A stretch of 47,142 bases of DNA from Opitutaceae bacterium (GTDB lineage: Bacteria > Verrucomicrobiota > Verrucomicrobiia > Opitutales > Opitutaceae), in the NCBI GenBank assembly GCA_030693515.1, contig JAUYAK010000024.1:1-47142 (forward strand), written 5' to 3'. This document shows positions 18,144-46,982 of this stretch, piece by piece. The position numbers were made by a program, and so were the translations under genes. Numbering within the stretch: position 1 is the first letter of the stretch; every line of letters begins with the position of its first letter. A model generated the notes under the pieces. That model did no database searches, was not told where the DNA came from, and worked only from the letters and a program-made list of their open reading frames with translations.

Positions 18144-18173
18144 TGTCCAATTCCCTGCGCTTCGCGGCATAAC
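18144..18173 (+). promoter_or_regulatory. ECF-type promoter motif before the sigma factor gene
   Basis: TGTCCAATT (18144-18152), 13 bp, then GGCATAAC (18166-18173), followed by CTCC. The start codon is 30 nt further on. The same two boxes with the same spacer occur before three sulfatase genes (26224, 30546, 46953). The spacing suits the -35/-10 of an ECF promoter and implies autoregulation. Upstream 17947-18143 shows no gene. Confidence 0.75.
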
Positions 18174-18203
18174 CTCCCGCGCACTCCGTGCTTTTACCAC
18201 CCC

Positions 18204-18737
18204 ATGAGCACCCCTCTCCACGCTCTCGACGGTGAAGCCTTCACCCGGCTCCTGCTCCAAAATCAGCGCCGCATCGCCGGGCTGATTTTCGCGCTCGTGC
18301 CCAACGGACCCGACGCCGACGATGTGATGCAGGAAACCTGCGCCGTGCTCTGGCGGAAGTTTGGCGAGTTTCAGCCCGGCAGCGATTTTGGCGCGTGGGC
18401 CCTGCGCATCGCACGTTTTCAGGTGATGAGTCACTACAACCGTCGTCGCCGCGCGCAGGCGCGCCTGAGCGACGAGATCATCGAAACCATCGCCGACACG
18501 CTCGCCGAGCTGCGCTGGGAATCCTCCGACCGCGCCGAGGCCCTGCGCGCGTGCGTCGGCCAGCTCAAGGAACGCGAGGTCCAACTCGTCCAACGCCGCT
18601 ACGATGGCGGCGAATCCGTTGATGAAATCGCCCGGCACCTCGGGGCCACTGTGCATGCCGTCTACAAGGCCCTCGCCCGCCTGCACGTGCGGCTGCTCGG
18701 GTGCGTCAACGCCAAGCTTCAGGCCCCGCAGCCATGA
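18204..18737 (+). CDS. ECF sigma factor, Rhodopirellula/Verrucomicrobium type, 177 aa
   Basis: Extracytoplasmic-function sigma factor that directs RNA polymerase to a small regulon. Region 2 spans about residues 12-85 (DADDVMQETCAVLWRKF, FGAWALRIARFQVMSHYNRR); region 4 is about 115-165 with the HTH ESVDEIARHLGATVHAVYKA. Both match the TIGR02989-like family typical of verrucomicrobia and planctomycetes. It overlaps the FecR-LamG gene in ATGA, the classic sigma/anti-sigma arrangement. The conserved motif 30 nt upstream is shared with sulfatase genes, so this factor probably drives itself and them. ATG 18204 is preferred to a much longer frame from 17970 because that extension has no family similarity and covers the motif. 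Confidence 0.9.
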   Translation: MSTPLHALDGEAFTRLLLQNQRRIAGLIFALVPNGPDADDVMQETCAVLWRKFGEFQPGSDFGAWALRIARFQVMSHYNRRRRAQARLSDEIIETIADTLAELRWESSDRAEALRACVGQLKEREVQLVQRRYDGGESVDEIARHLGATVHAVYKALARLHVRLLGCVNAKLQAPQP

Positions 18738-20284
18738 GCGATCCTGCTTCCTCCTTGTCCGCCATGGAGCTCGACCGGCTCGCCGAACTTGCGGAGAAAC
18801 TGCGCGCCAACGCCCTGGCCGACGCCGAGGTCGCCGAGCTCGAATCGCTGCTCGCCGAATCCGCCGCGGCCCGCACCGCGTTTGCCGAACTGGCGATGCT
18901 CACGGCCGAACTGCGGCACACGCACGGTCGGCACACGTTTCCCGTGCCGACGGAAACCCGCCCCGGCAGGCTGGTGACATTTTTCTGCCAGCGCTGGCTC
19001 CCGCTGGCCGCCGCGGCCTGCCTCGCCTTGGCCGCGCTTGGGGTTTGGCGCTACGGTCCGGCGCGCTCCACCGCCCACGGCGGCCCCATCGCCACCATCA
19101 CCAACGCCAGCGGTGCCGTGCTCCTCGCCGACGACCGCGCGACCGACGCCTCCGTCGGCGCCACGCTGCGCGGCGGCGCGTTGCATCTGCGCAGCGGGCT
19201 GCTCGAGCTGACCTATCCGAGCGGCGTCGTGCTCGTGCTGGAATCGCCGGCCCGCTTTGATCTGCGCAGCGCCACCACGCTTTGGCTGGCCGCGGGGAAT
19301 GTGAGCGCGCGCGTGCCGGGTCCGGCGGTCGAGTTCACCATCGAGACCCCCAGCGCCAGCATCGTCGATTTGGGCACCGAGTTTGGCGTGAGTGTGGGTG
19401 CCACGGGCAGCGAAGTGCACGTGTTCAAGGGCGAGGTCCTCATCAAAAACAAAAACGAGCCTGACTCGCTTCGCCTCACGGAAAACCGTGCCTCCCGCAT
19501 CGACACACAGACCCGCACACCCACGGGCATCGACTACCAGCCCGAGCGTTTCTTACGCACCCTGGACGAACCCGGCAGCAGCTACCGCGACCTGATCCGG
19601 CAATACGATCCGATCGCCTACTATCGGATGCGCATCACGCCCGAGGCCACGCTCCTCCTCGACGTCACGCGCAGCCAGCTCAACGGCCGGATCGTCCTCG
19701 GATCGAGTCAGCACGCCTTCGCCACCGGCAGAATCGGCGCCGGCCTGCGACTGGGCGGGCCGGCGCCGCGCAGCTACGCCTACGTGCCCGACTTTCCGAA
19801 GGCCCCCGCCGCCGCCCTCACCGTCTGCGCCTGGGTGCGGGCGGAAAGTCGCCCGCGCTGGGCCAGCATCGCAAAAAACTGGGCCAAAGATGTCGGCTCG
19901 AATCGCGGCGGGCAGTTTCACTTCGGCCTGTTTCACGATGAAGGCAGTCTCGAGGTCCACGTGCACGACGAGGCCGGCCGCGAGGTCTGGGTGCAGGACC
20001 GCGAGCCGTTGCCGCTCGGCGAGTGGCAGTTTGTGGCCTTCACCCTCGATGGCTCGACGCTCCGCCTCTACCGCAACGGCCGCGAGATCGACTCGACGCC
20101 GTGCCGCGGTCTGACGCAGACCGCCCCCGCCGCTCTCGCGCTCGGCGTCAAACTCGACGCCTCCGGCACCGGGCCCGAGACCAACACCCCGGGCTTCTGG
20201 GATGGCACGCTCGACGAGGTCGCCATTTTCCACCGCACGCTCAGTCCCGCCCAGCTCCTCGCACTCTACGACACCGCCCGCTGA
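18734..20284 (+). CDS. FecR-type anti-sigma factor with periplasmic LamG domain, 516 aa
   Basis: Layout: a cytoplasmic helical part (1-85, probably sigma-binding), one membrane span at about 89-106 (LPLAAAACLALAALGVW), a FecR domain at about 118-245 (HLRSGLLELTYPSGVVLVLE, SIVDLGTEFGVSVG, VHVFKGEVLI), and a LamG/concanavalin-like domain at about 340-510 (ALTVCAWVRAESRP, WVQDREPLPLGEWQFVAFTL, DGTLDEVAIFHRTLSPAQLL). FecR proteins hold the paired sigma factor and respond to an external signal. LamG domains often bind glycans, so this protein may sense a polysaccharide fragment directly. It is co-translated with the sigma gene, and the TonB receptor follows after 73 nt. Confidence 0.88.
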   Translation: MSDPASSLSAMELDRLAELAEKLRANALADAEVAELESLLAESAAARTAFAELAMLTAELRHTHGRHTFPVPTETRPGRLVTFFCQRWLPLAAAACLALAALGVWRYGPARSTAHGGPIATITNASGAVLLADDRATDASVGATLRGGALHLRSGLLELTYPSGVVLVLESPARFDLRSATTLWLAAGNVSARVPGPAVEFTIETPSASIVDLGTEFGVSVGATGSEVHVFKGEVLIKNKNEPDSLRLTENRASRIDTQTRTPTGIDYQPERFLRTLDEPGSSYRDLIRQYDPIAYYRMRITPEATLLLDVTRSQLNGRIVLGSSQHAFATGRIGAGLRLGGPAPRSYAYVPDFPKAPAAALTVCAWVRAESRPRWASIAKNWAKDVGSNRGGQFHFGLFHDEGSLEVHVHDEAGREVWVQDREPLPLGEWQFVAFTLDGSTLRLYRNGREIDSTPCRGLTQTAPAALALGVKLDASGTGPETNTPGFWDGTLDEVAIFHRTLSPAQLLALYDTAR

Positions 20285-20357
20285 CCGCCCCCGCCGTGCC
20301 GGCCACGGCTCCCCGTTCGTTTCCCAGCCTTTCACCCCAGAAACGCCCCCCCACCCC

Positions 20358-23300
20358 ATGAAACTCCCTCCTTGGCCCTATCGTTTCGCCGTCTGTTTTT
20401 ACCTCGGCGCGGCCTCCAGCGTTCTCGGCCAGACCGTGACTCCGCCCGCCCTACCAGCCGCCGCCGAGGTGGTGGAGCTCAGCCCCTTCACCGTCAACGC
20501 CGCCGCCGACCAAGGCTATCGCGCCGAAAACACCCTCGCGGGCAGCCGGCTCAACACGAGTCTCCGCGACACGCCGTCTTCGGTGAGCGTTTTCACCGAA
20601 AAATTCCTGGAGGATCTCGGGATCAATCAGATCGAGGATCTGATCGGCTACACCGTCGGTGCGACCCTCGCGGTGCAGGACACCAACGCGGCCCCCAACG
20701 CCAACGCCGCCATCAACGGCCAGGGCCTCGTCCGCGGCATCGAAATTCGCGGCATCGGTTCCTCCCTCGGCCTCGACTACTTCAAGAGCATCACGCCGAA
20801 CGATTCCTACCGCATCGGCCGCTACGACGAGAGCCGCGGCCCCAACGGCATCCTCTTCGGCATCAGCTCCGCCGGCGGCCTCATCAACCAAAGCACCCTC
20901 TTGGCGACGACGAATCGCGACAGCGGCAAGATCAGCCATGAGTTCGGCCACGGCGCCGTCGCACCCAAGCGCTGGGAATTCCGCGCCAACCACGTCGTCG
21001 TTCCAGGAAAACTGGCCGTCGCGGTCTCGGCCGTTGACCAGCAAAACACCGGCTGGCGCAAGCCCGACTACCAGGACAAGCGCCGGCTCTTCGGCACGCT
21101 CACGTTTACGCCGACGAACCGCGTCACCCTCCGCGTCTCGGGTGAGCGGGGCAACGAATTCGGCTCGCGCGTCGCACCCTATCCGCTCTTCGACGGCTCG
21201 CTCGCGTGGTTGGACAACCGCAACGCCAAGGGCGTCGCCGCGGTCTCGTTTACACCCAACAATGCCGCGACCGCCACCGCTGCCCAACTCGCCGTCGGCG
21301 TCGTCGCGCGCAACCAGGGTTTCTCGGCCGCGGTCCCCGGCATCCGCCGCTTCGTCTACATCGAGAATGACGGCACCCTGTTTAATTCCACCGGCACACT
21401 CCTGACCGGTTCCTACGACAATCCCGCCGTGCGCTCGCCGACCGGCCAGCCCGGCGTGAGCGGCGTCACCCTGGCGATCAACGATCCGTCGTATGTGCCG
21501 CGCGAACTGAACTCCGGCGGACCGGGTATGTTCCGCAGCCAGAATCTCCACAACGCCACCGTGTCGCTCGATTGGCGTATCACGAATCGCCTGACCCTGA
21601 ATTTCTCCCACAACTACCAGCACACCGATCTGGAAAGTCCCGTCATCACCGGGGCGAGTCCGATGCTGTCCGGTGACGCCAATACCACGCAGGGCTTTGG
21701 CGGTCCCGCCAACCCCTACGTCGGCCGTCTCTACATCGACGCCACCTGGATCAACGGTCTGCACAGTGCGAGCTACCGCGAGTCGCGCGTGTCGCTGGCC
21801 TATGACTTGGAAACAAAATGGAAGTGGCTCGGCACTCATCGCCTCGCCGGCATGGCGTCGCGCAGCAAGGATGTGGACCGCTACAACAGCCGGCAGTGGG
21901 GCTTTCTCGGCGCACCGTTCAACGCGGCCGCCGACAACCAAAGCAACCGCATCTCCCAACGCATCTACCTCGACGAGACGAAGCCCTCCCTGTTTCAGGC
22001 GGCGGATTGGCGCACGTTGCCCAAGACGGCCCGAGTCGGGACGACCACCTATGACGCCGGCTGGATCAACGGTGCCGCGGGCACGAACAACTCCTACGCC
22101 ACGCAGGAATCCGACGCGCGCCTCGCCGTCGTGCAGAGCCATTTTTTCAACCGCCGCCTCGTGACCACGTTTGGCTACCGCGTGGATACGGCGGATATCA
22201 CGAGCTACGCGTTCACCACCGACCCGGTGTTGAAATCGTCGATCCCCGACTACGATGTCGCGAATGCCACGGTCAATTCCGTCAAAGGCATCACGCGCAC
22301 CCAGGGCGCCGTCCTCCACGTCACCTCGTGGGGATCGCTCATCGCCAATTGGTCCACCAACGTCGGCATCCCCACCTTCACCAACAAGGTGCTGCCGTAT
22401 GGCCTCATCCCCGACCCCTCGAAGGGCGAGGGATCGGACTACGGCGTCGCGCTCAATCTCCTCGAGGACCGGCTGTCGATGAAGGCCGTCTATTTCCAGA
22501 CCGACTCCAAGGGCAACACCGGCAGCGGCGGAATCGACGCCCGCTACAATCAACGCAATATCCGGATCGCCGATGCGTTGCAGGGCCCGCTGGTCGGCTC
22601 CGGCCTCGCTTATACAGCCGCGCAGTGGGCGCCGATCCGCTCGAGCATCACCGTGCCCGTCTCCGCGGCGATGTTTGACCAGACGAGCAGCGGCTACGAA
22701 TTCACCGCCCTCGCCAATCCCACCAAGAACTGGCGGGTGACCGCCACCTACTCCTACACGGACCGCATCCGCAAAAACTCCTCCGGGGCCGACGCGATTC
22801 CGTGGTATGGCTACACCTTTGCCAAAGGGCTCCTCGTCGAGGGCGTGAAACAAAACGCCGATGCCAGCTACACGATCACGCCGTCGGCCTTCACCAGCAC
22901 CGGCACGGTGGCCAAGTGGCTCGAACTCGCCGCGAAATCCCCCGCCGCCGATCTCACGAAGCTCGTGACCACCGGCACCACCACCGCCGCCCAGGAAATC
23001 CTCAATATGATCCGGGACATCAACAATGACATCGAGCAAAACGAACAACGCTGGGGCCTCCGTCCGCACAAAGTCAGCTTCTTCACCGCCTACGATTTCA
23101 CCACCGGACGACTCAAAGGCCTGACCGCCGGCGGCGGCTACCGCTGGCGCAATCCCAATGTCATCGGTCGCTACGCCAACGGCTCGGAAATCCAGGGCCG
23201 CGCCCTCACCGGCGTGGATGCCCTGGTGCGCTACAGCCACAAGGTCGCCGCGGGCCGCTTCCGCGGCACGCTGAGCTACCAACTCAATGTGACCAACCTT

Positions 23301-23441
23301 TTCGATCAGCGCGGCATCATCCCCCAACGCTTCTCCTCGACCCCCGACTTCATCATCCCCGGCGGCCGCAGTGTCGGCTACAGCCGGGTCGATTTCGTCG
23401 ACCCCCGCGCGATCCGCTTCACCACGACGTTCACCTACTGA
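20358..23441 (+). CDS. TonB-dependent outer-membrane receptor, 1027 aa
   Basis: Signal peptide (MKLPPWPYRFAVCFYLGAAS, cleavage near GQ) is followed by EVVELSPFTVNAAADQGYRA, a TonB-box-like start common in Opitutaceae receptors, then the plug (SLRDTPSSVSVFTEKFL, YDESRGPNGILFGISSAGGL) and a long beta-barrel that ends in an aromatic residue (TTTFTY). It would import a ligand, probably an oligosaccharide, through the outer membrane. There is no STN signalling domain between signal peptide and plug, so it cannot signal to FecR in the usual manner. It follows the sigma and FecR genes and is followed 3 nt later by a Tat-exported enzyme gene, all apparently one operon. Confidence 0.92.
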   Translation: MKLPPWPYRFAVCFYLGAASSVLGQTVTPPALPAAAEVVELSPFTVNAAADQGYRAENTLAGSRLNTSLRDTPSSVSVFTEKFLEDLGINQIEDLIGYTVGATLAVQDTNAAPNANAAINGQGLVRGIEIRGIGSSLGLDYFKSITPNDSYRIGRYDESRGPNGILFGISSAGGLINQSTLLATTNRDSGKISHEFGHGAVAPKRWEFRANHVVVPGKLAVAVSAVDQQNTGWRKPDYQDKRRLFGTLTFTPTNRVTLRVSGERGNEFGSRVAPYPLFDGSLAWLDNRNAKGVAAVSFTPNNAATATAAQLAVGVVARNQGFSAAVPGIRRFVYIENDGTLFNSTGTLLTGSYDNPAVRSPTGQPGVSGVTLAINDPSYVPRELNSGGPGMFRSQNLHNATVSLDWRITNRLTLNFSHNYQHTDLESPVITGASPMLSGDANTTQGFGGPANPYVGRLYIDATWINGLHSASYRESRVSLAYDLETKWKWLGTHRLAGMASRSKDVDRYNSRQWGFLGAPFNAAADNQSNRISQRIYLDETKPSLFQAADWRTLPKTARVGTTTYDAGWINGAAGTNNSYATQESDARLAVVQSHFFNRRLVTTFGYRVDTADITSYAFTTDPVLKSSIPDYDVANATVNSVKGITRTQGAVLHVTSWGSLIANWSTNVGIPTFTNKVLPYGLIPDPSKGEGSDYGVALNLLEDRLSMKAVYFQTDSKGNTGSGGIDARYNQRNIRIADALQGPLVGSGLAYTAAQWAPIRSSITVPVSAAMFDQTSSGYEFTALANPTKNWRVTATYSYTDRIRKNSSGADAIPWYGYTFAKGLLVEGVKQNADASYTITPSAFTSTGTVAKWLELAAKSPAADLTKLVTTGTTTAAQEILNMIRDINNDIEQNEQRWGLRPHKVSFFTAYDFTTGRLKGLTAGGGYRWRNPNVIGRYANGSEIQGRALTGVDALVRYSHKVAAGRFRGTLSYQLNVTNLFDQRGIIPQRFSSTPDFIIPGGRSVGYSRVDFVDPRAIRFTTTFTY

Positions 23442-23444
23442 CGC

Positions 23445-24554
23445 ATGCGCCCCACCCTGCTTCACCCCCATCCGCTCTCGCGGCGCGATTTCATCAACTT
23501 CATGGGTGTCGCTGCGACGGTTTCATCCGTGGATTCACTCTCGGCGCAAGCGACCGCTTCCGCCCCGAAAGTCCCGCTCGGCCTCGACGCCCACTCGGTG
23601 CGCGCGATGGGCTGGAAGGCACGTCAGCTGATCGACTACGCCGCGGAGCAGAAACTCGACGCCGTCCTTTTCAACACCCTCAAGCCGTTCGAAAGCCTCG
23701 ATTCCGCGCATTTGCGCAGCTTGCGCGAAACCGCTGCCGCGCGCGGCCTTCGGATCAACGTCGGCGTCGGCAGCGTGGCGGAAGGCTCAACGGTTTTTTC
23801 CAAAGAGAACGGCAACGCCGAAACGCTCCTCGCCCTCGGCGTGCGCGTGGCGACCGACTTGGGCTCGCCTGTCGTAAATTGTCGCATCGGCGCCTTGCCC
23901 GATCGCTCGACTCCGGGCGGCATCGAGGCCCGGACCGCCGAACTCCTCAAAGTCTTGAAAGCCGTCCGCAGCCGCGCGCTCGACGCCGGCGTGAAGTTCG
24001 CCGTCGAAAACCACGCGGGCGATCTCCGCTCCGAGGAATTGCTGCAACTCATCCAAGCCGCCGGCACCGACGTCGCCGGCGTCATGCTCGACCCCGGCAA
24101 CGCCGTCTGGGCCATGGAGGATCCCATGCGCCAGATCGATTTGCTCGGTCGTCACGTCCTCTGCACGAGCGTGCGCGACTGGATGGTCTGGGAATCGCCC
24201 GAGGGCGCCACGTTTCAGTGGACCGCCATCGGCGAAGGCTTGATGGACGTGCCTGCCTTCCTCGGGCACATGACCAAACTCTGCCCGGGCGTGCCGCTGC
24301 ACCTCGAAATCATCTCGAACTCGCCGCGCCCGATCCCGTTTCTCCGCGACGATCACTGGCAGGTTTATCCCAATCTCCGCGCGTCCGGCATCGTCGATTT
24401 CCTCGCCCTCTGTCGCCGCGGCCGTCCGTTGGAGTTAGTCAAACCACCCGCCGGCACTGCCGCGAAGACGTTCGAGCAACAACACCAGCGCGCTGAGTTC
24501 GAGCGCAGTGTGGCCACCCTCCGCCGGCTCGGCGCCGGCCTGCAGAAAATCTGA
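23445..24554 (+). CDS. Tat-exported TIM-barrel sugar isomerase/epimerase-like protein, 369 aa
   Basis: A twin-arginine signal (SRRDFINFMG, Arg13-Arg14) precedes a TIM barrel of the xylose-isomerase/AP-endonuclease-2 family. Likely metal-binding acids are Glu188 (FAVENHAG), Asp216 (MLDPGN) and Glu288 (LHLEII). Members epimerise or isomerise keto sugars or act in cyclitol pathways; substrate is unknown here. Its start is 3 nt after the TonB receptor stop, so it belongs to the sigma/FecR/receptor operon, and it converges with a Gfo/Idh/MocA oxidoreductase gene. The two families often occur together in glycan-degrading loci, where oxidation to a 3-keto sugar and isomerisation are coupled. Confidence 0.85.
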   Translation: MRPTLLHPHPLSRRDFINFMGVAATVSSVDSLSAQATASAPKVPLGLDAHSVRAMGWKARQLIDYAAEQKLDAVLFNTLKPFESLDSAHLRSLRETAAARGLRINVGVGSVAEGSTVFSKENGNAETLLALGVRVATDLGSPVVNCRIGALPDRSTPGGIEARTAELLKVLKAVRSRALDAGVKFAVENHAGDLRSEELLQLIQAAGTDVAGVMLDPGNAVWAMEDPMRQIDLLGRHVLCTSVRDWMVWESPEGATFQWTAIGEGLMDVPAFLGHMTKLCPGVPLHLEIISNSPRPIPFLRDDHWQVYPNLRASGIVDFLALCRRGRPLELVKPPAGTAAKTFEQQHQRAEFERSVATLRRLGAGLQKI

Positions 24555-24631
24555 AAAAAATCCCGCCGGCCGACGAGCGAGATTGCCCCCGCTTCGCCGT
24601 TGAACCCCCGCCACCGGTCACTCCCGCCGCC

Positions 24632-26041: not shown

Positions 26042-26223
26042 GGAAACAATGGGATTGGAACTCAGCGCAACGAGGCCTGACGCTACGGGAGGGAAAATGA
26101 ATTCCAAGGACGGTTTGCAGGCGGCCTCGGGCCGCGACCACGTTGCTTTTTCAAATGTCGCGAGAAAGCACCTTTTCGGTGTCTATCGCGCCATCGGGTG
26201 GCGTGACTTGGAACGGCGAATAA

Positions 26224-26253
26224 TGTCCAATTTGGCGTCGTGCGTGGCATTAC
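26224..26253 (+). promoter_or_regulatory. ECF-type promoter motif before the first sulfatase
   Basis: TGTCCAATT (26224-26232), 13 bp, GGCATTAC (26246-26253), then CTCC. The start codon lies 34 nt downstream. Both boxes and the spacer equal those upstream of the sigma factor gene, apart from T for A in the second box. Confidence 0.75.
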
Positions 26254-26287
26254 CTCCGACCTGCCCCGCCCGCCTCGCCCCACGACC

Positions 26288-27859
26288 ATGCGCATCCTGA
26301 GCTTCATCACTCGCTTTTTCGGAATCCGCTCTGCCTTCCCTCTCGCCGCTCTGTGCATGTTCGCACTGTCCGCCCACGCCGCGGCCACCGCGAAAATCAC
26401 GCCGCCCAACGTCATCTTCTTCGCCACGGACGATCTCAACGACTGGGTCGGCCCGCTGAATTCCCCGATTCACGCCAAGACGCCGAACTTGGATCGCCTC
26501 GCCGCGCGCGGCGTGACCTTCCAAAACGCGCAGGCCAGCGGCACGTTTTGCGCGCCCGCGCGCTCGGCGCTGTTCACGGGACGGCACCCGTCCACCACCG
26601 GCGCCTACACCACGCAGGTCTATTTTCGCGACCACCCCGAACTACGCCCGATGCAGGTCGCCCTCCAGGAGGGCGGCTACGCGACGTTCGGCACGGGCAA
26701 ACTGTTTCACCATCCGGCGGGCTACGTCGATCTGCGCGGCTGGACCGAGTTTCACACGCGCACCGCCGCCCAGCGTGTGGCGGGCTGGCCGGTCGATAGC
26801 TGGCGGCAGGGCGCGCCGTTGCCCACGCCCATGCCTTACAGCCAGTTCACGCGGCAGATGCGGGCCGAAACCGACAAGACCTTCATGGAGTATGCGCCGC
26901 TGCCCAATGAGGTCGAAAAAGACATGGCCGATACCCAGCAAACCGCGTGGGTGATCGATGTCCTGAAACGCACGCACACCCAGCCGTTTTTCATCGGACT
27001 GGGCCTCTATGCGCCGCACTTCCCGAATTACGCGCCGCAAAAATACTTCGACCTCTACCCGCTCGACGAAATCAAACTGCCACCGATCAAGAACGACGAT
27101 ACGAACGACCTGCCGCCGGCCATCAAAAAATTCTACGACCACCGGAAGACCACGATTCACGACAAGCTGAACGAAATGGGCCTCATGAAGGAGGTGCTGC
27201 GCGCCTACCTCGCGTCCATCTCCTACGCCGACGCCATGCTCGGCCGCGTGCTCGATGCGCTCGACGCGAGTGCCGCCCGCGACAACACGATCGTCATTTT
27301 CTGGAGCGACCAAGGTTATCACCACGGCGAGAAGGGCCAATGGGGCAAACACACGCTGTGGCAGCGCACCGCGAACATCCCCTTCATCTGGGCCGGACCG
27401 GGCATCGCGCGTCAGGCCAAGGTTGGCGCGACCGTGAGCGCGATCGATCTCTTCCCGACCCTCGTGGAACTGTGCGGACTCGCCCCCGACGCCGGGCTAG
27501 AAGGTCAGTCGCTGGCGACGACACTGCGCCAGCCCGCGCTCGCCCAGGACCGCAACGTCCTGCTCTGCGAGGTCAAGCCCGGCGGCTACGCGATCGTAAA
27601 CCGCCAGTGGCGCTTTATCCACTACGCCGACGGCACCGAGGAACTCTACGACGTCGTCAAGGACCCGAATGAATGGGACAATCTCGCGCCACACCCAAAA
27701 TACCAGTCCGTGATGGCCGAGCTGCGCCAGAGCGCACCCAAGCACTTCGCCGCACCCGGCCCGGAGTCGAAAGACCTGCGCCTCGTGGCCGAAGGCGAGC
27801 GCTTCCACTGGGAAGCGAAACCTGCGGGAGCGAAGAAAAAGGCCAAAGCCGCCAAGTGA
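26288..27859 (+). CDS. Sulfatase, iduronate-2-sulfatase-like (S1 family), 523 aa
   Basis: Removes sulfate esters from a glycan after its catalytic cysteine is oxidised to formylglycine. Signal peptide ends near residue 33 (MFALSAHAAA). Metal-binding FATDDL gives Asp48-Asp49, and the active-site motif is Cys88-Ala-Pro-Ala-Arg followed by SALFTGR. GKLFHH in place of the usual GKWH, and GYHHGEKGQWGKHTLW, point to the iduronate-2-sulfatase-like subgroup. The C terminus is Lys/Ala-rich. It has its own copy of the shared promoter motif and is transcribed alone. Confidence 0.9.
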   Translation: MRILSFITRFFGIRSAFPLAALCMFALSAHAAATAKITPPNVIFFATDDLNDWVGPLNSPIHAKTPNLDRLAARGVTFQNAQASGTFCAPARSALFTGRHPSTTGAYTTQVYFRDHPELRPMQVALQEGGYATFGTGKLFHHPAGYVDLRGWTEFHTRTAAQRVAGWPVDSWRQGAPLPTPMPYSQFTRQMRAETDKTFMEYAPLPNEVEKDMADTQQTAWVIDVLKRTHTQPFFIGLGLYAPHFPNYAPQKYFDLYPLDEIKLPPIKNDDTNDLPPAIKKFYDHRKTTIHDKLNEMGLMKEVLRAYLASISYADAMLGRVLDALDASAARDNTIVIFWSDQGYHHGEKGQWGKHTLWQRTANIPFIWAGPGIARQAKVGATVSAIDLFPTLVELCGLAPDAGLEGQSLATTLRQPALAQDRNVLLCEVKPGGYAIVNRQWRFIHYADGTEELYDVVKDPNEWDNLAPHPKYQSVMAELRQSAPKHFAAPGPESKDLRLVAEGERFHWEAKPAGAKKKAKAAK

Positions 27860-27924
27860 GGCTCACCACCTCTGCCCCACCGCCAAGCCCACGTCATCAC
27901 ACTATTTACCCGGCGGTTTTGGAT

Positions 27925-27972
27925 TGTAGGCCCGGTCGCTGACCGGGCACCCGGCCGCCGGCCGGGTCTACA
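27925..27972. repeat. Double-hairpin interspersed repeat
   Basis: TGTAG/CTACA outer arms enclose two perfect hairpins, CCCGGTC-GCT-GACCGGG and CCCGGCC-GCC-GGCCGGG. Just after it, a short CTCAGCT/CTCTGAG microrepeat at about 28024-28052 separates two convergent genes. It may act as a bidirectional stop for both; otherwise it is one of several unrelated repeats in the window. Confidence 0.6.
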
Positions 27973-28065
27973 AAAATCAAAGTCCAAAAGCGCGAGACGA
28001 CTGGTATCACTCCGAAGTCCGGTCTCTCAGCTCTCAGCTCTGAGCTCTCAGCTAAAAATTTCCTC

Positions 28066-29334: not shown

Positions 29335-29398
29335 GGGGTGCAAAAAAACCAAGGCGCCGGAAACTGTAATGAGCAAGTCTGTCGGCCATCCCACCGGC

Positions 29399-30545: not shown

Positions 30546-30575
30546 TGTCCAATTCGGCGCGGTTCGCGACATTAC
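30546..30575 (+). promoter_or_regulatory. ECF-type promoter motif before the second sulfatase
   Basis: TGTCCAATT (30546-30554), 13 bp, GACATTAC (30568-30575), then CTCC. It lies 37 nt before the start codon. One position in the second box differs (GA for GG); the spacer length is again 13. Confidence 0.75.
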
Positions 30576-32028: not shown

Positions 32029-32191
32029 GCTTGTCATGAAGTTTCCCTCCTTCTCTGGAGCGTGGCAGTGGCGTGCAGGGCCGTCGCTCGCCGACGTGCC
32101 GCTCCGCGTCCCAACGCCGCCACGTCCGCGTCGAAGCCCGACGCGCGGGAAAATTCTCCCAAATCAAAACAGAACGCGTCTAAGCTGTGAC

Positions 32192-35209: not shown

Positions 35210-36525
35210 TCCCTCGCCCCGCTCCCACGGAGCACCCTTCCGCCATGCTCACCGCCCGTCTGTCCGTTTTACTCTTCGTCACGCTTCTGGCCCCGGCCTT
35301 CGCCGCAGCACCGCGCGTCGATGCCTCCACCCTCACCGGCAAAGTCATGGCCGGCTACCAAGGCTGGTTCAACGCCGAGGGCGACGGCGCCAAACGCGGC
35401 TACAACCACTGGACCAAGGGCGGCGCCAAGCCGGCCCCGGGCAATATCCGCATCGACATGTGGCCCGACCTCACTGAATTCCCCGCCGCCGAACGCTTCC
35501 CGACCGACCTCGTTCACGCCGACGGCACTTCGGCCGAGGTGTTCAGCTCCTATCTCCGCTCCACCGTCGGGCGCCACTTCGCGTGGATGCAGGAGCACGG
35601 CATCGACGGCGTTTTTCTCCAACGTTTCATCAACTCCCTCGCCCGCGGCACCTCCCTCGCGGCCAACAACGCCGTCCTCGAAAACGTCCGCGCCGGCGCG
35701 CGCCAACACGGCCGCGTTTATGCCCTCATGTATGATCTCAGCAGTCTCGCGCCCGGCCAGGCCGACGTGCTGATCAACGATTGGAAAAAACTCCTGCACG
35801 ACACCCGCCTCACGTCGGATCCCGCCTATCTGCGTCACCATGGCAAACCGCTCCTCGCCCTCTGGGGCTGCGGGTTCAAGAGCGACGACAAGCCCCGCCC
35901 CACTCTCGACGACTGGCGAAAAATTCTCGCGTTCTTGAAAGACGACAAGGAAAGCGGCGGCCTCGCGATCATGCTCGGGGTGCCGAGTGGCTGGCGCACT
36001 CAGACGCGTGACACGATCCCCGATCCGACCCTGCTCGAACTTGTTCAACTCGCCGACGTGATTTCTCCGTGGACGCCCGGCCGCTATCGCACACCCGAGG
36101 GCGCCACCGCCCAGGGCGCGACGGTCTGGCAGCCCGACCTCGCGTGGTGTCGCGAGCGCCAGATCGATTTCCTCCCCGTCGCCTTCCCCGGCTTCAGCTG
36201 GCACAACATGAAGGGCGCCCCGCTCAACGCGATTCCTCGGCTGCAAGGCCGCTTCTTCTGGTCGCAGGTCACCGCCGCGAAACGCGCCGGCGCCGACATG
36301 CTCTACGTCGCCATGTTCGACGAGGTCGATGAGGGCACCGCCATTTTCAAAGTGACCAACTCGCCCCCCGTCGGCCCCGGCGAAAACGTAAAATTCGCCA
36401 CCTACGAGGGTCTCCCGAGCGACCACTACCTCCGCCTGACTGGCCTGGCCGGAAAAGTCATCCGCGGCGAGCAGCCGGCGACCGACGAGTTACCGTTCCC
36501 TGTCCCCACCGCGACCATTCCGTGA
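35206..36525 (+). CDS. Secreted GH99-like (GH71/99-like) glycoside hydrolase, 439 aa
   Basis: A signal peptide starts at either ATG 35206 or, more typically, ATG 35245 (MLTARLSVLLFVTLLAPAFA). The mature part opens TGKVMAGYQGWFNAEGDG and contains HGIDGVFLQRF and LYVAMFDEVDEGTAIFKV. In family GH99 (endo-alpha-1,2-mannosidases) the two catalytic glutamates are spaced Glu-x-x-Glu; Glu373 and Glu376 here fit that spacing. The likely role is cleavage of an alpha-linked, probably mannose-containing, chain once sulfates are removed. It is translationally coupled to sulfatases on both sides (ATGA at 35206, GTGA at 36522), the only recognisable glycosidase in the window. Confidence 0.8.
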   Translation: MIPRPAPTEHPSAMLTARLSVLLFVTLLAPAFAAAPRVDASTLTGKVMAGYQGWFNAEGDGAKRGYNHWTKGGAKPAPGNIRIDMWPDLTEFPAAERFPTDLVHADGTSAEVFSSYLRSTVGRHFAWMQEHGIDGVFLQRFINSLARGTSLAANNAVLENVRAGARQHGRVYALMYDLSSLAPGQADVLINDWKKLLHDTRLTSDPAYLRHHGKPLLALWGCGFKSDDKPRPTLDDWRKILAFLKDDKESGGLAIMLGVPSGWRTQTRDTIPDPTLLELVQLADVISPWTPGRYRTPEGATAQGATVWQPDLAWCRERQIDFLPVAFPGFSWHNMKGAPLNAIPRLQGRFFWSQVTAAKRAGADMLYVAMFDEVDEGTAIFKVTNSPPVGPGENVKFATYEGLPSDHYLRLTGLAGKVIRGEQPATDELPFPVPTATIP

Positions 36526-37937
36526 AATTTCTCAAACCTTCTCTCCTGCTCGCTCTGATCGGCTACCTCGCGGCGCTGCCCGTCGGCGCCCACGCCGCCG
36601 CCCCGGCGAAAAAGCTCAACGTCCTGCTTATCGCCGTCGACGATTTGCGCGACACCCTCGGTTGCTATGGCCATGCCGCCGTAAAGACGCCGCACATCGA
36701 TCGTCTCGCCGCCCGCTCCGTCCGCTTCGACCGCGCCTACGTGCAATACCCGGTCTGCAACGCAAGCCGTTCCTCGTTCCTCACCGGCCTGCGCCCTGAC
36801 CAGACCGGCGTCACCGACAACAGCACACTCCTCCGGGATCGCCTGCCCGATGTGGTGACCTTGCCCCAGCTCTTGAAAGACGACGGCCGCCACGCCGCCG
36901 CTTTCGGCAAGATCTTCCATCTCGGCGGCGGCCGCGACGACGCGCTCCGCGCGAAGTGGGTGGACTTGCCGCGCTCGTGGCACGCGGCCGAGTCATTCCA
37001 AGCGACCCCGCTCGGCCGGCAGAAACTCTCCGGCCGCGATCTCACCCAGGGGAAGTTGGCTTGGTGCAATTGGGGTGCCATGGCCGGCGACGACGACGAC
37101 CAGCCCGACGGACAAATCGCCCGCGCCGTCAGTGCCGAGATCGAAAAACTTGGCGACCGTCCGTGGATCATCGGCGCCGGCTTCATGAAGCCGCACGATC
37201 CCTTCGTCGCGCCCAAGAAGTATTTCGATCTGTATCCCGAAGGGGCACTGACGCTGCATCGGCCGCCCGGCGACCAAACGCCCGCTCCGCCCCTCGCGGT
37301 CGGCTTCGGCGGGCTCGGCGCCGCGTTCGCCCAATTCACCGATCGCGAGCGCGACGAATTCCTCCGCGCCTACTACGCCTGCACGACCTTCATGGATGCT
37401 CAGGTCGGCCGCGTGCTCGCCACGCTGGATCGGCTCCACCTCTGGGAAACCACGATCGTCATCTTCCTCGGCGACCACGGCTACCACCTCGGCGAGCGCG
37501 CCTGGTGGAATAAGAACACCCTCTTCGACCGCAGCTGCCGCGCGCCGCTCCTCATCGCCGCTCCCGGCATAAAACCTGGCGTCGCCCGCGGGCTCGTTGA
37601 GTTCGTCGATCTTTATCCGACCATCGCCGAACTCTGCGGACTCACGCCGCCACCGAACCTCGCCGGCCAAAGCTTCCGCCCGCTTCTGCGGAATCCCTCC
37701 TCACCCGGCAAGCCCGCCGCCTTCACGCTCGTCAAGCGTGGCACCTCCCGTGGCGATTCGATCCGCACCGACCGCTGGCGCTTCACCCGGTGGAGCGACG
37801 GCGCCACCGAACTCTACGACCACACGACCGATCCGGAAGAAGACCGCAACGTCGCTTCCACCGAGCCCGCCGTCGTTCGCGATCTGGGCCGCCAGCTCTC
37901 AGCTGCTCTCGATTCTTCAGCGCGGTCCAAACTCTGA
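36522..37937 (+). CDS. Sulfatase, iduronate-2-sulfatase-like with CNASR motif, 471 aa
   Basis: Signal peptide 1-26 (LLALIGYLAALPVGAHAAA), metal ligands Asp40-Asp41 (AVDDLRDTLG), and the active site Cys79-Asn-Ala-Ser-Arg before SSFLTGL. The CxAxR form is a known variant of CxPxR. GKIFHLGG replaces GKWH and LGDHGYHLGERAWWNK is typical of the iduronate-2-sulfatase-like group, as in the gene at 26288. The start is GTG 36522, overlapping the GH99-like stop in GTGA. It has a normal length. Confidence 0.9.
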   Translation: MKFLKPSLLLALIGYLAALPVGAHAAAPAKKLNVLLIAVDDLRDTLGCYGHAAVKTPHIDRLAARSVRFDRAYVQYPVCNASRSSFLTGLRPDQTGVTDNSTLLRDRLPDVVTLPQLLKDDGRHAAAFGKIFHLGGGRDDALRAKWVDLPRSWHAAESFQATPLGRQKLSGRDLTQGKLAWCNWGAMAGDDDDQPDGQIARAVSAEIEKLGDRPWIIGAGFMKPHDPFVAPKKYFDLYPEGALTLHRPPGDQTPAPPLAVGFGGLGAAFAQFTDRERDEFLRAYYACTTFMDAQVGRVLATLDRLHLWETTIVIFLGDHGYHLGERAWWNKNTLFDRSCRAPLLIAAPGIKPGVARGLVEFVDLYPTIAELCGLTPPPNLAGQSFRPLLRNPSSPGKPAAFTLVKRGTSRGDSIRTDRWRFTRWSDGATELYDHTTDPEEDRNVASTEPAVVRDLGRQLSAALDSSARSKL

Positions 37938-37951
37938 GCTGCCCTCTCTCC

Positions 37952-39394
37952 ATGAAAACTCTCCGCGTCCGCTCGGTTCTCTTCCTCGCACTGCTCGTCA
38001 CCGTCGTCGCCAGCGCCAGCGCCGCCACTGCCCGCAAGCCCAACTTCCTCTTCATCTACACCGACGACCAGCGCTGGGATGCGATGAGCGTCGTGCAACG
38101 CGAACAGGGCGAGCGCGCGCGTTTCCCGTGGTTTCAATCGCCGCACATGGACCGCCTCGCCGCCGAGGGCGTGCGGTTTCGCAATGCCTTCGTCACGCTC
38201 TCGCTTTGCGCGCCCAGCCGCGCGGCCTATCTGACCGGCCGCTACAATCACGCCAACGGCGTTGCCAACAACCACACGCCTTTCCCCGTCACCAGTGTCA
38301 CGCATGCCAGTCTCCTGCGCGCCGCCGGCTACCAGACGGCCTACATCGGCAAATGGCACCACGGCAGCCAGAGCGGACAGCGCCCCGGCTTCGACTACTC
38401 CGCGAGCTTCGTCGGCCAAGGCCGATATTTCAACTGCCCCGTGGAAATCAACGGCGCCTCCACGCCGACGACCGGTTGGATTGACGATGTCAGCACGGAC
38501 TTCGCGATCGCATTCATGCAGCAAAACCGCGCGCGCCCCTTCTCCATGGTCGTGGGCTTCAAGTCCCCGCATGGTCCGCGCGGCGGCGCCAATCTTCCCG
38601 AACGCCTGCGCACCAAATTCGCCGACGAGACGAGCCGCCCGGTGCCGAATCTCGCGAGCCCGGCCATCTACCGCCCGGCTGCTCCCAGCGAGGGCAAGGC
38701 CACGACCGGCGCCCGCGTCAACGATGCCCATCTCGACTACCTGCGCCACATCGCCGGGGCCGACGAGAATCTCGGCCGCCTGCTCCAGACCCTCGACGAC
38801 CTCGGCCTGACCGACGACACCGTCGTCGTCTACGCCAGCGACAACGGCTACTACCTCGGCGAACACGGCCTCGGCGACAAACGCTCCCTCTACGAAGAGT
38901 CCCTCCGCATCCCGCTGCTCGTGCGCTATCCCCGGCTCGTCCCCAAGGGGATAACGATGGACGAGATGGTGCTGAACATCGATCTCGCGCCCACCCTCCT
39001 CGAACTCGGCGGCGTGCCCGTGCCGCATGAGATGCAAGGCCTGAGCTGGGTGCCGCTCCTCACCGGGAAGAAACCCGCGTGGCGTCAGTCGTTCCTCGCG
39101 GAGTATTTTTACGAAAACAATTTCGAGACCCCGACGATGCTCGGCGTCCGCACCGCCAACGCGAAAATTATCCAATACCCCGGCCACCCCGAATGGACCG
39201 AAGTTTTCGATCTCGCGATCGACTCCTACGAAATGAAAAATCTCGCCGCCGATCCCGCCCGACGCGTGCAACTGACGGCCGAGCTCGATGCGCAGATCAA
39301 AGCGACCGGCTACGTCGTCCCCGCTGGCATGGATCAACCCGGCCAGCGCACCGAGAAGGCCGCCAAGAAAAAAGCCAAAGCGAAGCAACCTTAG
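37952..39394 (+). CDS. Sulfatase, heparan N- or 6-sulfatase-like, 480 aa
   Basis: Signal peptide 1-25 (VLFLALLVTVVASASA), metal ligands Asp38-Asp39 (IYTDDQRWDAM), and the active site Cys86-Ala-Pro-Ser-Arg before AAYLTGR. IGKWHHG, YASDNGYYLGEHGLGDKRSL and YEESLRIPLLVRYP suggest the N-acetylglucosamine-6-sulfatase-type subgroup; exact specificity is not clear. The C-terminal tail is Lys/Ala-rich (EKAAKKKAKAKQP), as in several neighbours. It starts 14 nt after the previous stop. Longer in-frame sequence before ATG 37952 has no similarity. Confidence 0.9.
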   Translation: MKTLRVRSVLFLALLVTVVASASAATARKPNFLFIYTDDQRWDAMSVVQREQGERARFPWFQSPHMDRLAAEGVRFRNAFVTLSLCAPSRAAYLTGRYNHANGVANNHTPFPVTSVTHASLLRAAGYQTAYIGKWHHGSQSGQRPGFDYSASFVGQGRYFNCPVEINGASTPTTGWIDDVSTDFAIAFMQQNRARPFSMVVGFKSPHGPRGGANLPERLRTKFADETSRPVPNLASPAIYRPAAPSEGKATTGARVNDAHLDYLRHIAGADENLGRLLQTLDDLGLTDDTVVVYASDNGYYLGEHGLGDKRSLYEESLRIPLLVRYPRLVPKGITMDEMVLNIDLAPTLLELGGVPVPHEMQGLSWVPLLTGKKPAWRQSFLAEYFYENNFETPTMLGVRTANAKIIQYPGHPEWTEVFDLAIDSYEMKNLAADPARRVQLTAELDAQIKATGYVVPAGMDQPGQRTEKAAKKKAKAKQP

Positions 39395-39415
39395 TGTCCG
39401 GCATCCGGCCCTCCC

Positions 39416-40984
39416 ATGGCTCAATCTCTATCCCGTCTGCTCCTCGCCGCGCTGTTTGCAGCGACACTTGCGCCGGCCCTCTGCGCCCAACGCCCTGCGC
39501 CACCGCCCAACATCGTCTTCATTCTCATCGACGACATGCCGTGGTTCGGCACGCCCGTGCGCATGAGCGCGGATCTGCCGGAATCGGCTATGGGTTTCCG
39601 CCACATGCCCAACGTGGAAAAACTCGCCGCGCAAGGCATGACTTTCCGCAATGCCTACGCGGCCGCCGGCATGTGCGGACCTTCACGCTGTTCGATTCAA
39701 ACCGGCATGATGACGGCCCGCCACCTTTACAGCGGCAACGGCGGTTTCGGTGAAAAGACCAACGGCACCGTGGAATATCTCACCCGTGGGCAGGACGCCA
39801 CCCGCCCACTGCTCCAGCCGGAACCGCAGGGCAACATCCGGTTTCCGTCCATCGGCGACGCGCTGAAATCCGCAGGCTACGCCACCGCTCACTTCGGCAA
39901 GTGGCACCTCTACGGCGGCGGCCCGGCTCAGCACGGCTACGACGAGAGCGACGGCGACACGGACAACAAAACCTGCCAGCCCATCGACGCGGCGACCGGC
40001 CTCCGCTCCAGCACATCCGACGACCCCAAGCTGATGTTCAGCATCACGCGCCGCAGCGTCGATTTCATGGAGCGCCAGGCCAAAGCCGGCCGCCCCTTCT
40101 TTGTTCAAGTCTCCCACTACGCCACCCACGCCCAGTATCAGGCCACGAAAAAGACGTTCGAGAAATACGAAAACGACCCGGTGTTCGCCCGCATTGAGAA
40201 CCGCCGTGAACGACAGAATGCCGTGCTCGGCGCCGCCATGGTCGAGAATCTCGACACCTCGATTGGCCAACTGCTGCAAAAACTCGACGCCCTCGGGATC
40301 GCGCAGAACACCTACGTCGTCTTCACGACCGATAATGGCTACCGGCAATGGAACGAATCCTACGATCCGTTGCGCGGCGCGAAATGGTGGCTCTGGGAAA
40401 ATGGCATCCGCGTCCCGCTCATCGTGCGCGGCCCGGCCATCGCCGCCGCCTCGCGTTGCACCGTCAACGTCGTCGGCTACGATTTCCTCCCGACCTTCGC
40501 CGATCTCGCGGGCGCGACGGACAAACTCGGCCCCAACCTCGACGGCGTGAGCTTCAAGCCGTTCCTCCTCGGGCGCCAACCCACCGAGCCAGAGCGCAAC
40601 CGCCCGCTCTACTTCCACTCTCCACACTATCGCGTTTCCGTGCCGGCTTCCGCGCTCATCGTGGGCGAAACCAAATTGATGCACTGGTATGAATGGCCGG
40701 ACCAACGTTTCGTCTACGACCTCGGTCGCGACCTCGCCGAGAAGCATAACGTCGCTGCCGCCAATCCGGCGCGAACCAGCCAAATGGAGCAGCAACTGAT
40801 GGACGGTTTGAAAGCGGTCGGTGCCTATTTCCCCAAGCCCAATCCCAACGCCGACCCGAAAGCCAAACGCTACGATCCCGCCAACCTCGCCGACCAGGGC
40901 GAAATCGGCGACCCCGAAGTCACCGGTGGCGAGGCACCGCCAGCGGGAGCAAAAAAGAACGGGAAAGCCAAAAAGCAGAAATAA
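39416..40984 (+). CDS. Sulfatase, S1 family, 522 aa
   Basis: Signal peptide 1-24 (RLLLAALFAATLAPALCA), metal ligands Asp39-Asp40 (LIDDMPWFG), and the active site Cys87-Gly-Pro-Ser-Arg before CSIQTGMMTAR, a less common continuation than LxTGR. FGKWHLYGGG, FTTDNGYRQWNES and WENGIRVPLIVRGP complete the fold. An insertion of about 20 residues (VRMSADLPESAMGFRHMPNV) follows the metal motif. It is the last gene of the cluster; a 54-bp gap separates it from the convergent response-regulator gene. Subfamily not assigned. Confidence 0.88.
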   Translation: MAQSLSRLLLAALFAATLAPALCAQRPAPPPNIVFILIDDMPWFGTPVRMSADLPESAMGFRHMPNVEKLAAQGMTFRNAYAAAGMCGPSRCSIQTGMMTARHLYSGNGGFGEKTNGTVEYLTRGQDATRPLLQPEPQGNIRFPSIGDALKSAGYATAHFGKWHLYGGGPAQHGYDESDGDTDNKTCQPIDAATGLRSSTSDDPKLMFSITRRSVDFMERQAKAGRPFFVQVSHYATHAQYQATKKTFEKYENDPVFARIENRRERQNAVLGAAMVENLDTSIGQLLQKLDALGIAQNTYVVFTTDNGYRQWNESYDPLRGAKWWLWENGIRVPLIVRGPAIAAASRCTVNVVGYDFLPTFADLAGATDKLGPNLDGVSFKPFLLGRQPTEPERNRPLYFHSPHYRVSVPASALIVGETKLMHWYEWPDQRFVYDLGRDLAEKHNVAAANPARTSQMEQQLMDGLKAVGAYFPKPNPNADPKAKRYDPANLADQGEIGDPEVTGGEAPPAGAKKNGKAKKQK

Positions 40985-41038
40985 TTAGTCTCCAGACTCG
41001 CTTCGCGCTTCCGTCTTTCTCCCCGTGCCGGGTGCGCC

Positions 41039-43431: not shown

Positions 43432-43639
43432 CGTCATTGTCCGCGCCGGCATTCCGAGTGCATTCTTGAGCGACGCGACGAACAACATCCGCAGGAGCTT
43501 AGCAACCTTCCGCCCGACTGCCCATCCCCCGAAAAGGGGATGGTCGCGGGGCACGAAAAGGAACATAGTCCTCGCGGTAACTGGCGACTCCGCCCCTCGG
43601 AGCCATCGTGCGCACCCAATCCCTGCTACCTACCCAACC

Positions 43640-46600: not shown

Positions 46601-46666
46601 CACATCCTCCAGCGAATCTATCAGGCGCCCCGGAGCTATGAGCTTTCCGCGGGGCTGAGGTTTTAG
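43640..46666 (+). CDS. TonB-dependent outer-membrane receptor, 1008 aa
   Basis: Signal peptide (MKHPRLALTLSLLVGTALAQ) is followed by TTIVLNPFIVSTEANKGYYA, the plug (LRTQVRDLANPITILTEEFM, VTQSRGPNSLLFGLGSVGGG) and a beta-barrel ending in ELSAGLRF with terminal Phe. Like the receptor at 20358 it has no STN signalling domain. It is divergent from the sensor kinase gene and there is no copy of the ECF-type motif before it, so it is more likely controlled by the two-component pair. Probable importer of a different glycan fragment; no SusD-like partner is encoded nearby, as expected outside Bacteroidota. Confidence 0.92.
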   Translation: MKHPRLALTLSLLVGTALAQSVAPSAPSASTAAEDTTIVLNPFIVSTEANKGYYASETLSGTQLRTQVRDLANPITILTEEFMRDIGAVNYEEALEFLPSTQAYKGDSSDPESVTSRTGTPFTVRGFRSTSLTNNFFTSRIKVDNFNTETVTQSRGPNSLLFGLGSVGGGLDATNKMGRFNANSYGLEVRFDSEGSKRASVDINRIVIPNKVALRFAALTTDQRTPREFQYMRRNSAYLNLTLQPFKGATINLNAETGRIDELNPRPYLAYDSVSAWLNDPRTPLQKANTIDRALVQSGTTAARNAARNIIPGVSQGFSTTNYLVYVMNAPQLGVQNWNFKSRGSEAFVNGLTQNQTSISNATRVPGVNFPLDTIVSGPSDYFDTTYDKFSASWQQQVLTKTFFELAGAYEKSKNEDWQPISRGDYEVFIDNNYYLPTQLASTNPDPTKPLNPNFGTPYLESNSTLQNRSTTMKQYRATLTRQFDLSRIEPIKGLDFGKFTAVAFHYYRHVDSFFQQPEEMTTTSVLASGVLADTQNQIRRRYYLAPGQPVTFPAFVPSQARIEQTGNPAVPGSVVPTVSSAFLHRLNPVYAPETTKSYAAIGQWELFSRRLILTGGIRRDDISSKNFVFAQDPITRLFLGKGQGAFAPARESSVTNTNYGAVVKVTKWLDVFANTATNTVGAGGTNYDINNQTLPNQEGLGYDLGLRGFFFGDRLILKLNYFNNELVNRVSNPLRDGAIGIEMARQNGYVERFLEGMVLNGFGSRVAGALRFADYPGNGLWSDVESDLTEGYEFEATVNPTKQLRVMLNVSYNDSKLNSTYKFTRPWYEQYVKPVRDNAAITSLIANSTFNATRTIGTYITGIERRLNYHEAQVGGARLRGTNWLVNLVASYAFDQGPLKGTRVGGSARWREAPAIGYPETATSFDVANPFTGKDSLVTDAFASYAWRLKLLERNMNWTVSFRVRNLLNDDEAFPASAVDNGSGQAHILQRIYQAPRSYELSAGLRF

Positions 46667-46952
46667 GTCAACGGAGAGCCGGCTGCGCCACCTCCCTGTC
46701 GCGCGCACTGTTCATCGCGTCAGTTGTGCGGCCCCCTCGCCGCGCGACGGCGCGCGACGCGAGTGAGTGCGCGCAAGTGAGCGACGGATTTGCCTGTAAT
46801 TCGCCGGCGCCCCGCTTTTGCCGCTCACGTGGCCACTCGCCACAAATCGGGCATCGGCCTGTGGTTTTTTGCACGGTTGGCGTGCGCGTTTAAGTCGGCC
46901 TCCCTCGGGGATCAGGTCCCTCACGATTGTCGTTGGGCCGCACACCGATTCC

Positions 46953-46982
46953 TGTCCAATTCGCAACGGGTCGCGGCATTAC
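46953..46982 (+). promoter_or_regulatory. ECF-type promoter motif before the last (partial) sulfatase
   Basis: TGTCCAATT (46953-46961), 13 bp, GGCATTAC (46975-46982), 34 nt before the start. The following bases are GTCG rather than CTCC. Between the receptor stop (46666) and this motif the sequence contains only GC-rich palindromic runs (CGCGCGAC, GCGCGCGAC) and no gene. Confidence 0.75.

Follow-up and report, generated by a model that had tools for sequence, protein, structure and literature searches.

A two-box element in the window

The window studied here, 47,142 nt long, is an entire contig (C128, JAUYAK010000024.1) of a genome of the Opitutaceae (assembly GCA_030693515.1, hereafter G000; 6.65 Mb in 130 contigs). 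It encodes an extracytoplasmic function (ECF) sigma factor, a FecR-LamG protein and a series of sulfatases, and it carries copies of a two-box element, TGTCCAATT-N13-GRCATWAC, which was originally predicted to define a regulon of one sigma operon and three sulfatase transcripts. The features concerned are the following.

18144..18173, plus strand: candidate promoter site 1, TGTCCAATT-N13-GGCATAAC, 30 nt upstream of the sigma gene
18204..18737, plus strand: ECF sigma factor, 177 aa, TIGR02989 (151.8 bits), Pfam Sigma70_r2 and r4_2
18734..20284, plus strand: FecR-LamG protein, candidate anti-sigma factor and sensor, sharing 4 nt with the end of the sigma gene and bearing a hydrophobic segment at about residues 83-107
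20358..23441, plus strand: TonB-dependent receptor of the sigma operon, Plug domain only
23445..24554, plus strand: xylose-isomerase-like TIM-barrel protein (Pfam), last gene of the sigma operon
26224..26253, plus strand: candidate promoter site 2, 34 nt upstream of sulfatase 1
26288..27859, plus strand: sulfatase 1, Cys-type active-site motif, PF00884 (Pfam run from 26297)
30546..30575, plus strand: candidate promoter site 3, box 2 GACATTAC, 37 nt upstream of sulfatase 2
30613..32028, plus strand: sulfatase 2, PF00884 (Pfam run from 30625)
32036..33721, plus strand: sulfatase 3, start uncertain (32036 to about 32315)
33749..35209, plus strand: sulfatase 4
35206..36525, plus strand: weakly GH99-like protein (25.3 bits, under the Pfam cut-off of 33)
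36522..37937, plus strand: sulfatase 5
37934..39394, plus strand: sulfatase 6
39416..40984, plus strand: sulfatase 7
46953..46982, plus strand: candidate promoter site 4, 34 nt upstream of an ATG
47017..47142, plus strand: start of a gene cut by the contig end, 42 codons, resembling sulfatase 2

A pattern scan recovered these four sites and no other copy in the window, even when up to three mismatches were tolerated. The first box, TGTCCAATT, is identical at all four sites and the spacer is always 13 nt. Counted from the end of box 2, the ATG follows after 30, 34, 37 and 34 nt (at 18204, 26288, 30613 and 47017, respectively). In all these respects, including the distance of 30-37 nt to the start codon, the original prediction was accurate. 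The exact motif never occurred in 100 dinucleotide shuffles of the window, which gave a mean of 0.1 matches at up to three mismatches.

The genes behind the sites are those of a sigma factor with its putative partner and of sulfatases. The sigma protein exceeds the curated cut-off of TIGR02989 (Sig-70_gvs1; 124.55 bits), its residues 11-168 covering the whole model (1-158 of 158). The overlapping gene encodes a membrane-type partner with one hydrophobic segment; its FecR domain and the gene order suggest that it is an anti-sigma factor binding and inhibiting the sigma factor. Among solved structures, matches were limited to distant relatives of the ECF factor and a single weak hit to the LamG part. 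The seven complete sulfatases of the window all combine PF00884 with the C-x-P/A-x-R motif of type I formylglycine sulfatases.

The prediction that an ECF sigma factor and three sulfatases lie downstream of the sites is confirmed by Pfam for the sigma factor and two sulfatases. The third is well founded and incomplete, since only 42 codons are visible, and these match the N terminus of sulfatase 2 (48% over 42 aa, E = 8.5e-6). Site 3 was expected to serve one sulfatase; a sulfatase does come first, and the run behind it carries six of them together with the weakly GH99-like gene, mostly with overlaps or short gaps. Sulfatases 2 and 3 are separated by as little as 7 nt or as much as about 280 nt, according to which start is taken, and no terminator-like site was reported between them on the plus strand. 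We infer that this run (sulfatases 2 to 7 and the GH99-like gene) is a single transcript.

The exact motif has four matches in the whole genome, all in the window, and its reversed pattern has none. Allowing up to three mismatches yields 16 sites, against 3 for the reversed control; besides the 4 exact ones, one site has one mismatch, two have two and nine have three. The single site with one mismatch is on another contig (C116:23032-23061, minus strand), 70 nt upstream of the ATG of a Gfo/Idh/MocA oxidoreductase gene, which opens a run that continues with a sulfatase, a TonB receptor and two further sulfatases. The four transcripts first proposed therefore stand and this fifth strong site brings the candidate regulon to five. 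All five sites are oriented in the sense direction, 30-70 nt upstream of starts. One heads the sigma operon; each of the other four opens a sulfatase-bearing run, which in one case begins with the Gfo/Idh gene and in another is visible as 42 codons only. The genome-wide scan that had been suggested as a check thus gave strong sites in a non-random arrangement.

This arrangement is also selective. Scoring 150 of 178 candidates gave 148 PF00884 matches in the genome, gene fragments among them; the window contributes 7 and the C116 run 3. Hence the motif heads runs with 10 of the 148 sulfatase matches, in addition to the truncated gene at 47017, and with so few of the matches headed by the motif the candidate regulon of five transcripts is a selective one. 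The probability that a randomly placed site lies no more than 120 nt upstream of one of the 148 matches is about 0.0013 by slot counting, or about 2e-6 for two sites; counting the gene at 47017, which is outside the 148, as a third gives 2e-9. Next to these runs, a TonB receptor encoded at 43583-46666 of the window has a copy at the right end of C116 (L155; 94% over 280 aa), and such closely related copies have possibly caused the assembly breaks beside the regulon.

Conservation of the boxes in related genomes

Orthologous loci were sought with the sigma protein against genome contigs, without using the motif. Close relatives of the sigma factor were found in Opitutia bacterium Tous-C4FEB (G245, L017; 79%) and Tous-C1TDCM (G006, L018; 76%), and broken ones in two metagenome-assembled genomes (MAGs), one labelled Opitutus sp. 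GAS368 (G124, L023; 62% over 85 aa) and one from Opitutae (G025, L076; 76% over 49 aa). The spacer-13 motif stands just 5' of the sigma gene in all four. Its boxes are TGTCCAGTT and GGTATTAC in G245, TGTCCGATT and CGAATTAC in G006, TGTCCAATT and GGCATTTC in G124, and TGTCCAATT and GGCATTAC in G025. The motif ends 34, 33 and 29 nt before the ATG in G245, G006 and G025, respectively; in G124 no ATG is present at the base that corresponds to residue 1, 30 nt past the end of the motif.

A genome of the same genus (G018) has a sigma orthologue (73%) with no site directly before it. There, the site (TGTCCAATC and GGCATAAC) is 21 nt before a sulfatase gene whose stop lies 41 nt before the sigma start, and the run consists of this sulfatase, the sigma factor, FecR-LamG, another sulfatase and a TonB receptor in two frames. 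The motif therefore directly precedes the sigma gene in five of the six orthologous loci, our own included, and the sixth is a sulfatase-led run. G245 has a second site, 95 nt before a sulfatase gene that is followed by genes for a TonB receptor, a TIM-barrel protein, sulfatase 1 and a sulfatase 2-like protein, with a GH99-like gene about 1.2 kb beyond the run on the same strand. Behind the G025 site come the broken sigma gene and genes for a TonB receptor, five sulfatase-like proteins and a GH99-like protein (BLAST). Comparison of the neighbours in G245, G018 and G025 indicates that the same families remain near the motif even though the order of the operons differs.

We aligned 15 sites anchored at the motif, six of them sigma-type and nine sulfatase-type. 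The spacer is 13 nt in all 15, and the invariant positions are TGTCC, G at +20, AT at +25 and +26, and C at +29 (counting the first T as 0), within a fuller consensus of GWTTYT-TGTCCAATY-N9-TCGY-GRCATWAC. Among the six sigma-type sites the pairwise identity is 0.89 in box 1 and 0.78 in box 2, against 0.46 in the spacer, 0.37 in the 30 nt upstream and 0.30 in the 45 nt downstream. Four of these sites were found via the sigma protein, so that in them the conservation of the boxes was not made by the search. In the loci retrieved, a matrix built from 11 sites scores 23.2-31.4 before five sigma genes of this orthologous group (group A) and no more than 17.6 before all remaining ECF homologues, with a maximum of 16.4 among 300 random controls.

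Taken with the shuffles and the reversed-pattern controls, this conservation rules out a chance origin of the motif. It also bears on the idea that the similarity is merely inherited, the upstream regions having been copied along with duplicated sulfatase genes and kept without regulatory selection. Sulfatase 2 and the product of the 47017 gene are indeed alike at the N terminus, and the flanks of sulfatase 2 orthologues are partly similar. However, sites also precede unrelated genes (the sigma factor and the Gfo/Idh enzyme), before the sigma genes, which were mostly found independently of the motif, conservation is much higher in the boxes than in the spacer and the flanks, and the sites remain while operon order varies among genomes. 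We give mere inheritance almost no credence.

The layout of the boxes fits that of a promoter. The -35 element would be TGTCCA and the -10 element GRCATWAC with TCGY in front of it, in the arrangement TGTCCA-N16-GRCA; a spacer of 16 nt between these two is the usual spacing of ECF -35 and -10 elements. A sigma-70 promoter was considered and dropped, the base that precedes TGTCC being variable (C, A, T and C in the window). An ordinary DNA-binding regulator, for instance a sensor of the same glycan, whose operator is placed at genes of shared function would produce the same picture in a scan, and an exact match that diverges from a sulfatase gene in G241 is an exception to the common orientation. 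Yet the motif is neither a palindrome nor a direct repeat, its boxes are spaced as in ECF promoters, the five sites of our genome are all in the sense direction, the distance from the end of a start-proximal site to the start is 21-95 nt, and the motif directly precedes the sigma gene in five of six loci. We hold an operator without promoter function to be very improbable.

Scans of 252 genomes of the family extended these results. The original pattern with at most one mismatch gave 20 sites in 12 genomes and none in the control, and 12 of the 20 are at the start of a sigma or sulfatase operon (5 in G000, 2 each in G122 and G124, and 1 each in G018, G024 and G025). An extended pattern, matched exactly, gave 20 sites in 13 genomes (reversed control, 1), of which 14, in 8 genomes, are at such operon starts; the other 6 lie inside open frames and were set aside. 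Where an intact close orthologue of the sigma factor is present (G000, G006, G018 and G245), operon-start sites occur in 4 of 4 genomes, compared with 4 of the 248 others (Fisher test, 4e-7), a comparison that is partly circular because the extended pattern was derived partly from the sites of sigma-bearing genomes. With the broken orthologues included, the figures become 6 of 6 against 2 of 246 (8e-11), on which we do not rely, since fragments were sought in five genomes only.

On this evidence, the ECF sigma factor from the 18204 gene very probably uses the motif as its promoter, and it would thereby control its own operon and drive a sulfatase regulon. The control of the sulfatase genes by the sigma factor, as first proposed, gains support from the genome scan, from boxes that are conserved before orthologous sigma genes while spacer and flanks are not, and from the co-occurrence in the 252 genomes. 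Sequence comparisons lend strong support to the gene set and to a role of the motif as promoter.

Weaker matches and paralogous sigma factors

Besides the partial circularity just mentioned, several observations weigh against this assignment. The nine sulfatase-type sites show identities of 0.39 upstream, 0.90 in box 1, 0.54 in the spacer, 0.88 in box 2 and 0.41 downstream, and their box conservation is partly selection, because these sites were mostly found with the motif. Among the family-wide matches to the original pattern, 7 lie elsewhere by context and 1, in G241, is unassigned to a start; this exact match (G241:C96:184-213, L160) is divergent to a sulfatase gene, with 183 nt of contig after it. 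G006, rated 85% complete, has the sigma site only. The sigma-FecR genes carry internal deletions, different from each other, in G025 (C86:29463-29982) and G124 (C531:850-1910). In both the promoter remains despite the deletion, and G124 also keeps a sulfatase site elsewhere; the deletions may be either a real loss or an assembly error. In G024 and G122, relatives of sulfatase 2 are preceded by TGTCCAATC-N13-GACATTAC (of the three frames, one is truncated), and no close orthologue of the sigma factor or of FecR-LamG was detected in these assemblies, which are fragmented and have a rated completeness of 93-94%. The sigma gene may have been missed in assembly or been lost, or another factor may read the sites. 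In our own genome, 11 weaker matches (two or three mismatches) lie away from sulfatase or sigma starts, and box 1, as TGTCCA, also occurs before some paralogous sigma genes, with other -10 boxes.

The 11 weaker matches were excluded from the regulon, as none precedes a sulfatase or sigma gene among the open frames inspected. Two weak sites (L006 and L009) are within sulfatase genes. Three others (L008, L011 and L015; G000 C24:9399, C45:707 and C103:327) carry AGTCCAAATTYCAAGKGACSTTGGNATAAC after a common GC-rich stretch, with three mismatches to the motif, and this element looks like a dispersed repeat family unrelated to it.

The paralogues raise the question of which sigma factor reads the sulfatase promoters. 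Of the eight other ECF matches in our genome, three have TGTCCA upstream together with a different -10, and five lack TGTCCA in the 150 nt upstream. The paralogue at C63:9253 has TGTCCAATT-N12-ACGGTAAC, that at C30:66448 has TGTCCAAAAATCCCCGCAGCGGACCTTATC, also present in G018, and that at C59:40987 has TGTCCAAATCCGCCGCCCACCGGCAGAG. The form of the first, TGTCCAAWT-N12-RCGGTAAC or relatives (group B), recurs before further paralogues of the genus and the family. When 27 genomes of the genus were scanned for it with at most one mismatch, four exact matches were found, each before its own sigma gene, and one inexact match, against one in the control; a second sulfatase regulon under the group-B motif was not found in these genomes. 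Loci with a TGTCCA -35 and another -10 include L181, L182, L180, L187, L126, L128, L132 and L164. The TGTCCA paralogues are possibly a set of separate sigma-promoter pairs.

The sulfatase promoters could thus be read by a paralogous TIGR02989-like sigma factor, or by several with overlapping specificities among which the linked one is just a member. The sharing of TGTCCA by some paralogues would fit this, as would the persistence of sites in G024 and G122 in the company of no detectable close orthologue. On the other hand, the paralogue promoters that we saw have other -10 elements, the exact group-B matches (RCGGTAAC; four in 27 genomes) are the paralogues' own promoters, and the GRCATWAC sites track the group-A orthologue. 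We regard reading by paralogues as unlikely, and retain the linked sigma factor as the probable reader. As box 1 is common to part of the paralogues, box 2 is likely the discriminator, and promoter specificity is probably carried by TCGY-GRCATWAC.

Upstream of more distant relatives of the sigma factor, in Planctomycetota and Verrucomicrobiota, other strings recur just before starts: GGAAACAATCG...GTCATTAC at L031, L044, L051, L070 and L082, and CGTAAAAT...GGAGATAAC and variants at L050, L052, L053, L059 and L064. They are candidate promoters of other subgroups.

A candidate glycan-responsive sulfatase regulon

How could such a regulon work? The FecR-LamG membrane protein would hold the sigma factor until a sulfated glycan is met, either by its lectin-like LamG part or by the co-encoded TonB receptor, and the sigma factor would then be released. 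Once free, it would transcribe its own operon (sigma factor, FecR-LamG, TonB receptor and TIM-barrel protein), three more units in the window (sulfatase 1; sulfatases 2 to 7 with the GH99-like gene; and the gene at 47017) and the C116 unit (Gfo/Idh enzyme, sulfatase, TonB receptor and two sulfatases). The sequences themselves show the motif with its position and orientation, how it is conserved ahead of the orthologous sigma genes, which genes it precedes and that it co-occurs with the sigma gene; recognition of the sites by the 18204 sigma factor, the extent of the transcripts, the anti-sigma action and the glycan signal are all inferred.

The sigma factor scores above the curated cut-off of TIGR02989, a family of ECF sigma factors from Rhodopirellula and Verrucomicrobium, and no target promoter or regulon for this subfamily was found in the literature searched, which covered few subscription papers. 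In FecA-FecR-FecI surface signalling, a sigma factor, a FecR-domain protein and a TonB-dependent receptor are encoded together. The same three are found together here, but the receptor (20358) has only a Plug domain, with no N-terminal signalling domain detected at E 0.001, and the FecR protein has an additional LamG part. FecR-LamG-like genes also adjoin several of the paralogous sigma genes of our genome, some with TonB-receptor-like genes.

The regulon belongs, and this is well supported, to the known ECF/anti-sigma regulons for glycans. Control of glycan enzymes by ECF and anti-sigma factors is established in Bacteroides, according to the parts consulted of a review (PMC10766802). In B. 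thetaiotaomicron, the available parts of one study describe SigW-1 as controlling the sulfatases BT3486-BT3489 and SusC/D (PMC12596196), which is similar in that one ECF factor drives several sulfatases and a TonB-dependent transporter. As far as the same source goes, the SigW-1 gene is distant from the sulfatases and the motif was not significant, whereas here the sigma operon adjoins the sulfatases (PMC12596196). The system also differs from that of SigW-1 in its anti-sigma candidate, FecR-LamG, and in the lack of a SusD-type match among the 19 window proteins scanned. TonB receptors are present, but the window does not show the SusC/SusD pair of a polysaccharide utilisation locus of the Bacteroides type. 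Clostridial sigma-I/RsgI systems resemble the present one in their membrane-signalled paralogues, own promoter variants and glycan-degrading regulons, as the sections consulted describe them (PMC6056542). Sigma-I belongs to a different sigma family, where specificity is given by the -35 element and the -10 CGAA is general (PMC6056542, same sections); here, in contrast, several paralogues share the -35 TGTCCA and differ at the -10. Rhodopirellula baltica is reported to have 110 sulfatases and 37 ECF factors, and in the portions seen of that paper no promoter tie between a sigma factor and a sulfatase set appeared (PMC2754498). The portions seen of an ECF review make no mention of FecR, LamG or sulfatase (PMC8103513).

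A broader picture, which we regard as a real possibility and hold with reserve, is that the Opitutaceae possess a switchboard of TIGR02989-like paralogues, many with FecR-LamG partners, several of which share the -35 TGTCCA while each group has a private -10, so that it is chiefly the -10 that separates their glycan regulons. The group described here would place 10 or 11 of about 148 sulfatases in one regulon and keep them together while operons are reshuffled between species.

A promoter paired with a sigma gene turns the question of which ECF factor controls which sulfatases into a testable regulon. By naming 10 or 11 sulfatases that would act together, the regulon may help to guess their shared substrate. 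The combination of a sigma gene, its own promoter and a genome scan could also be a route to reading out the regulons of the other paralogues.

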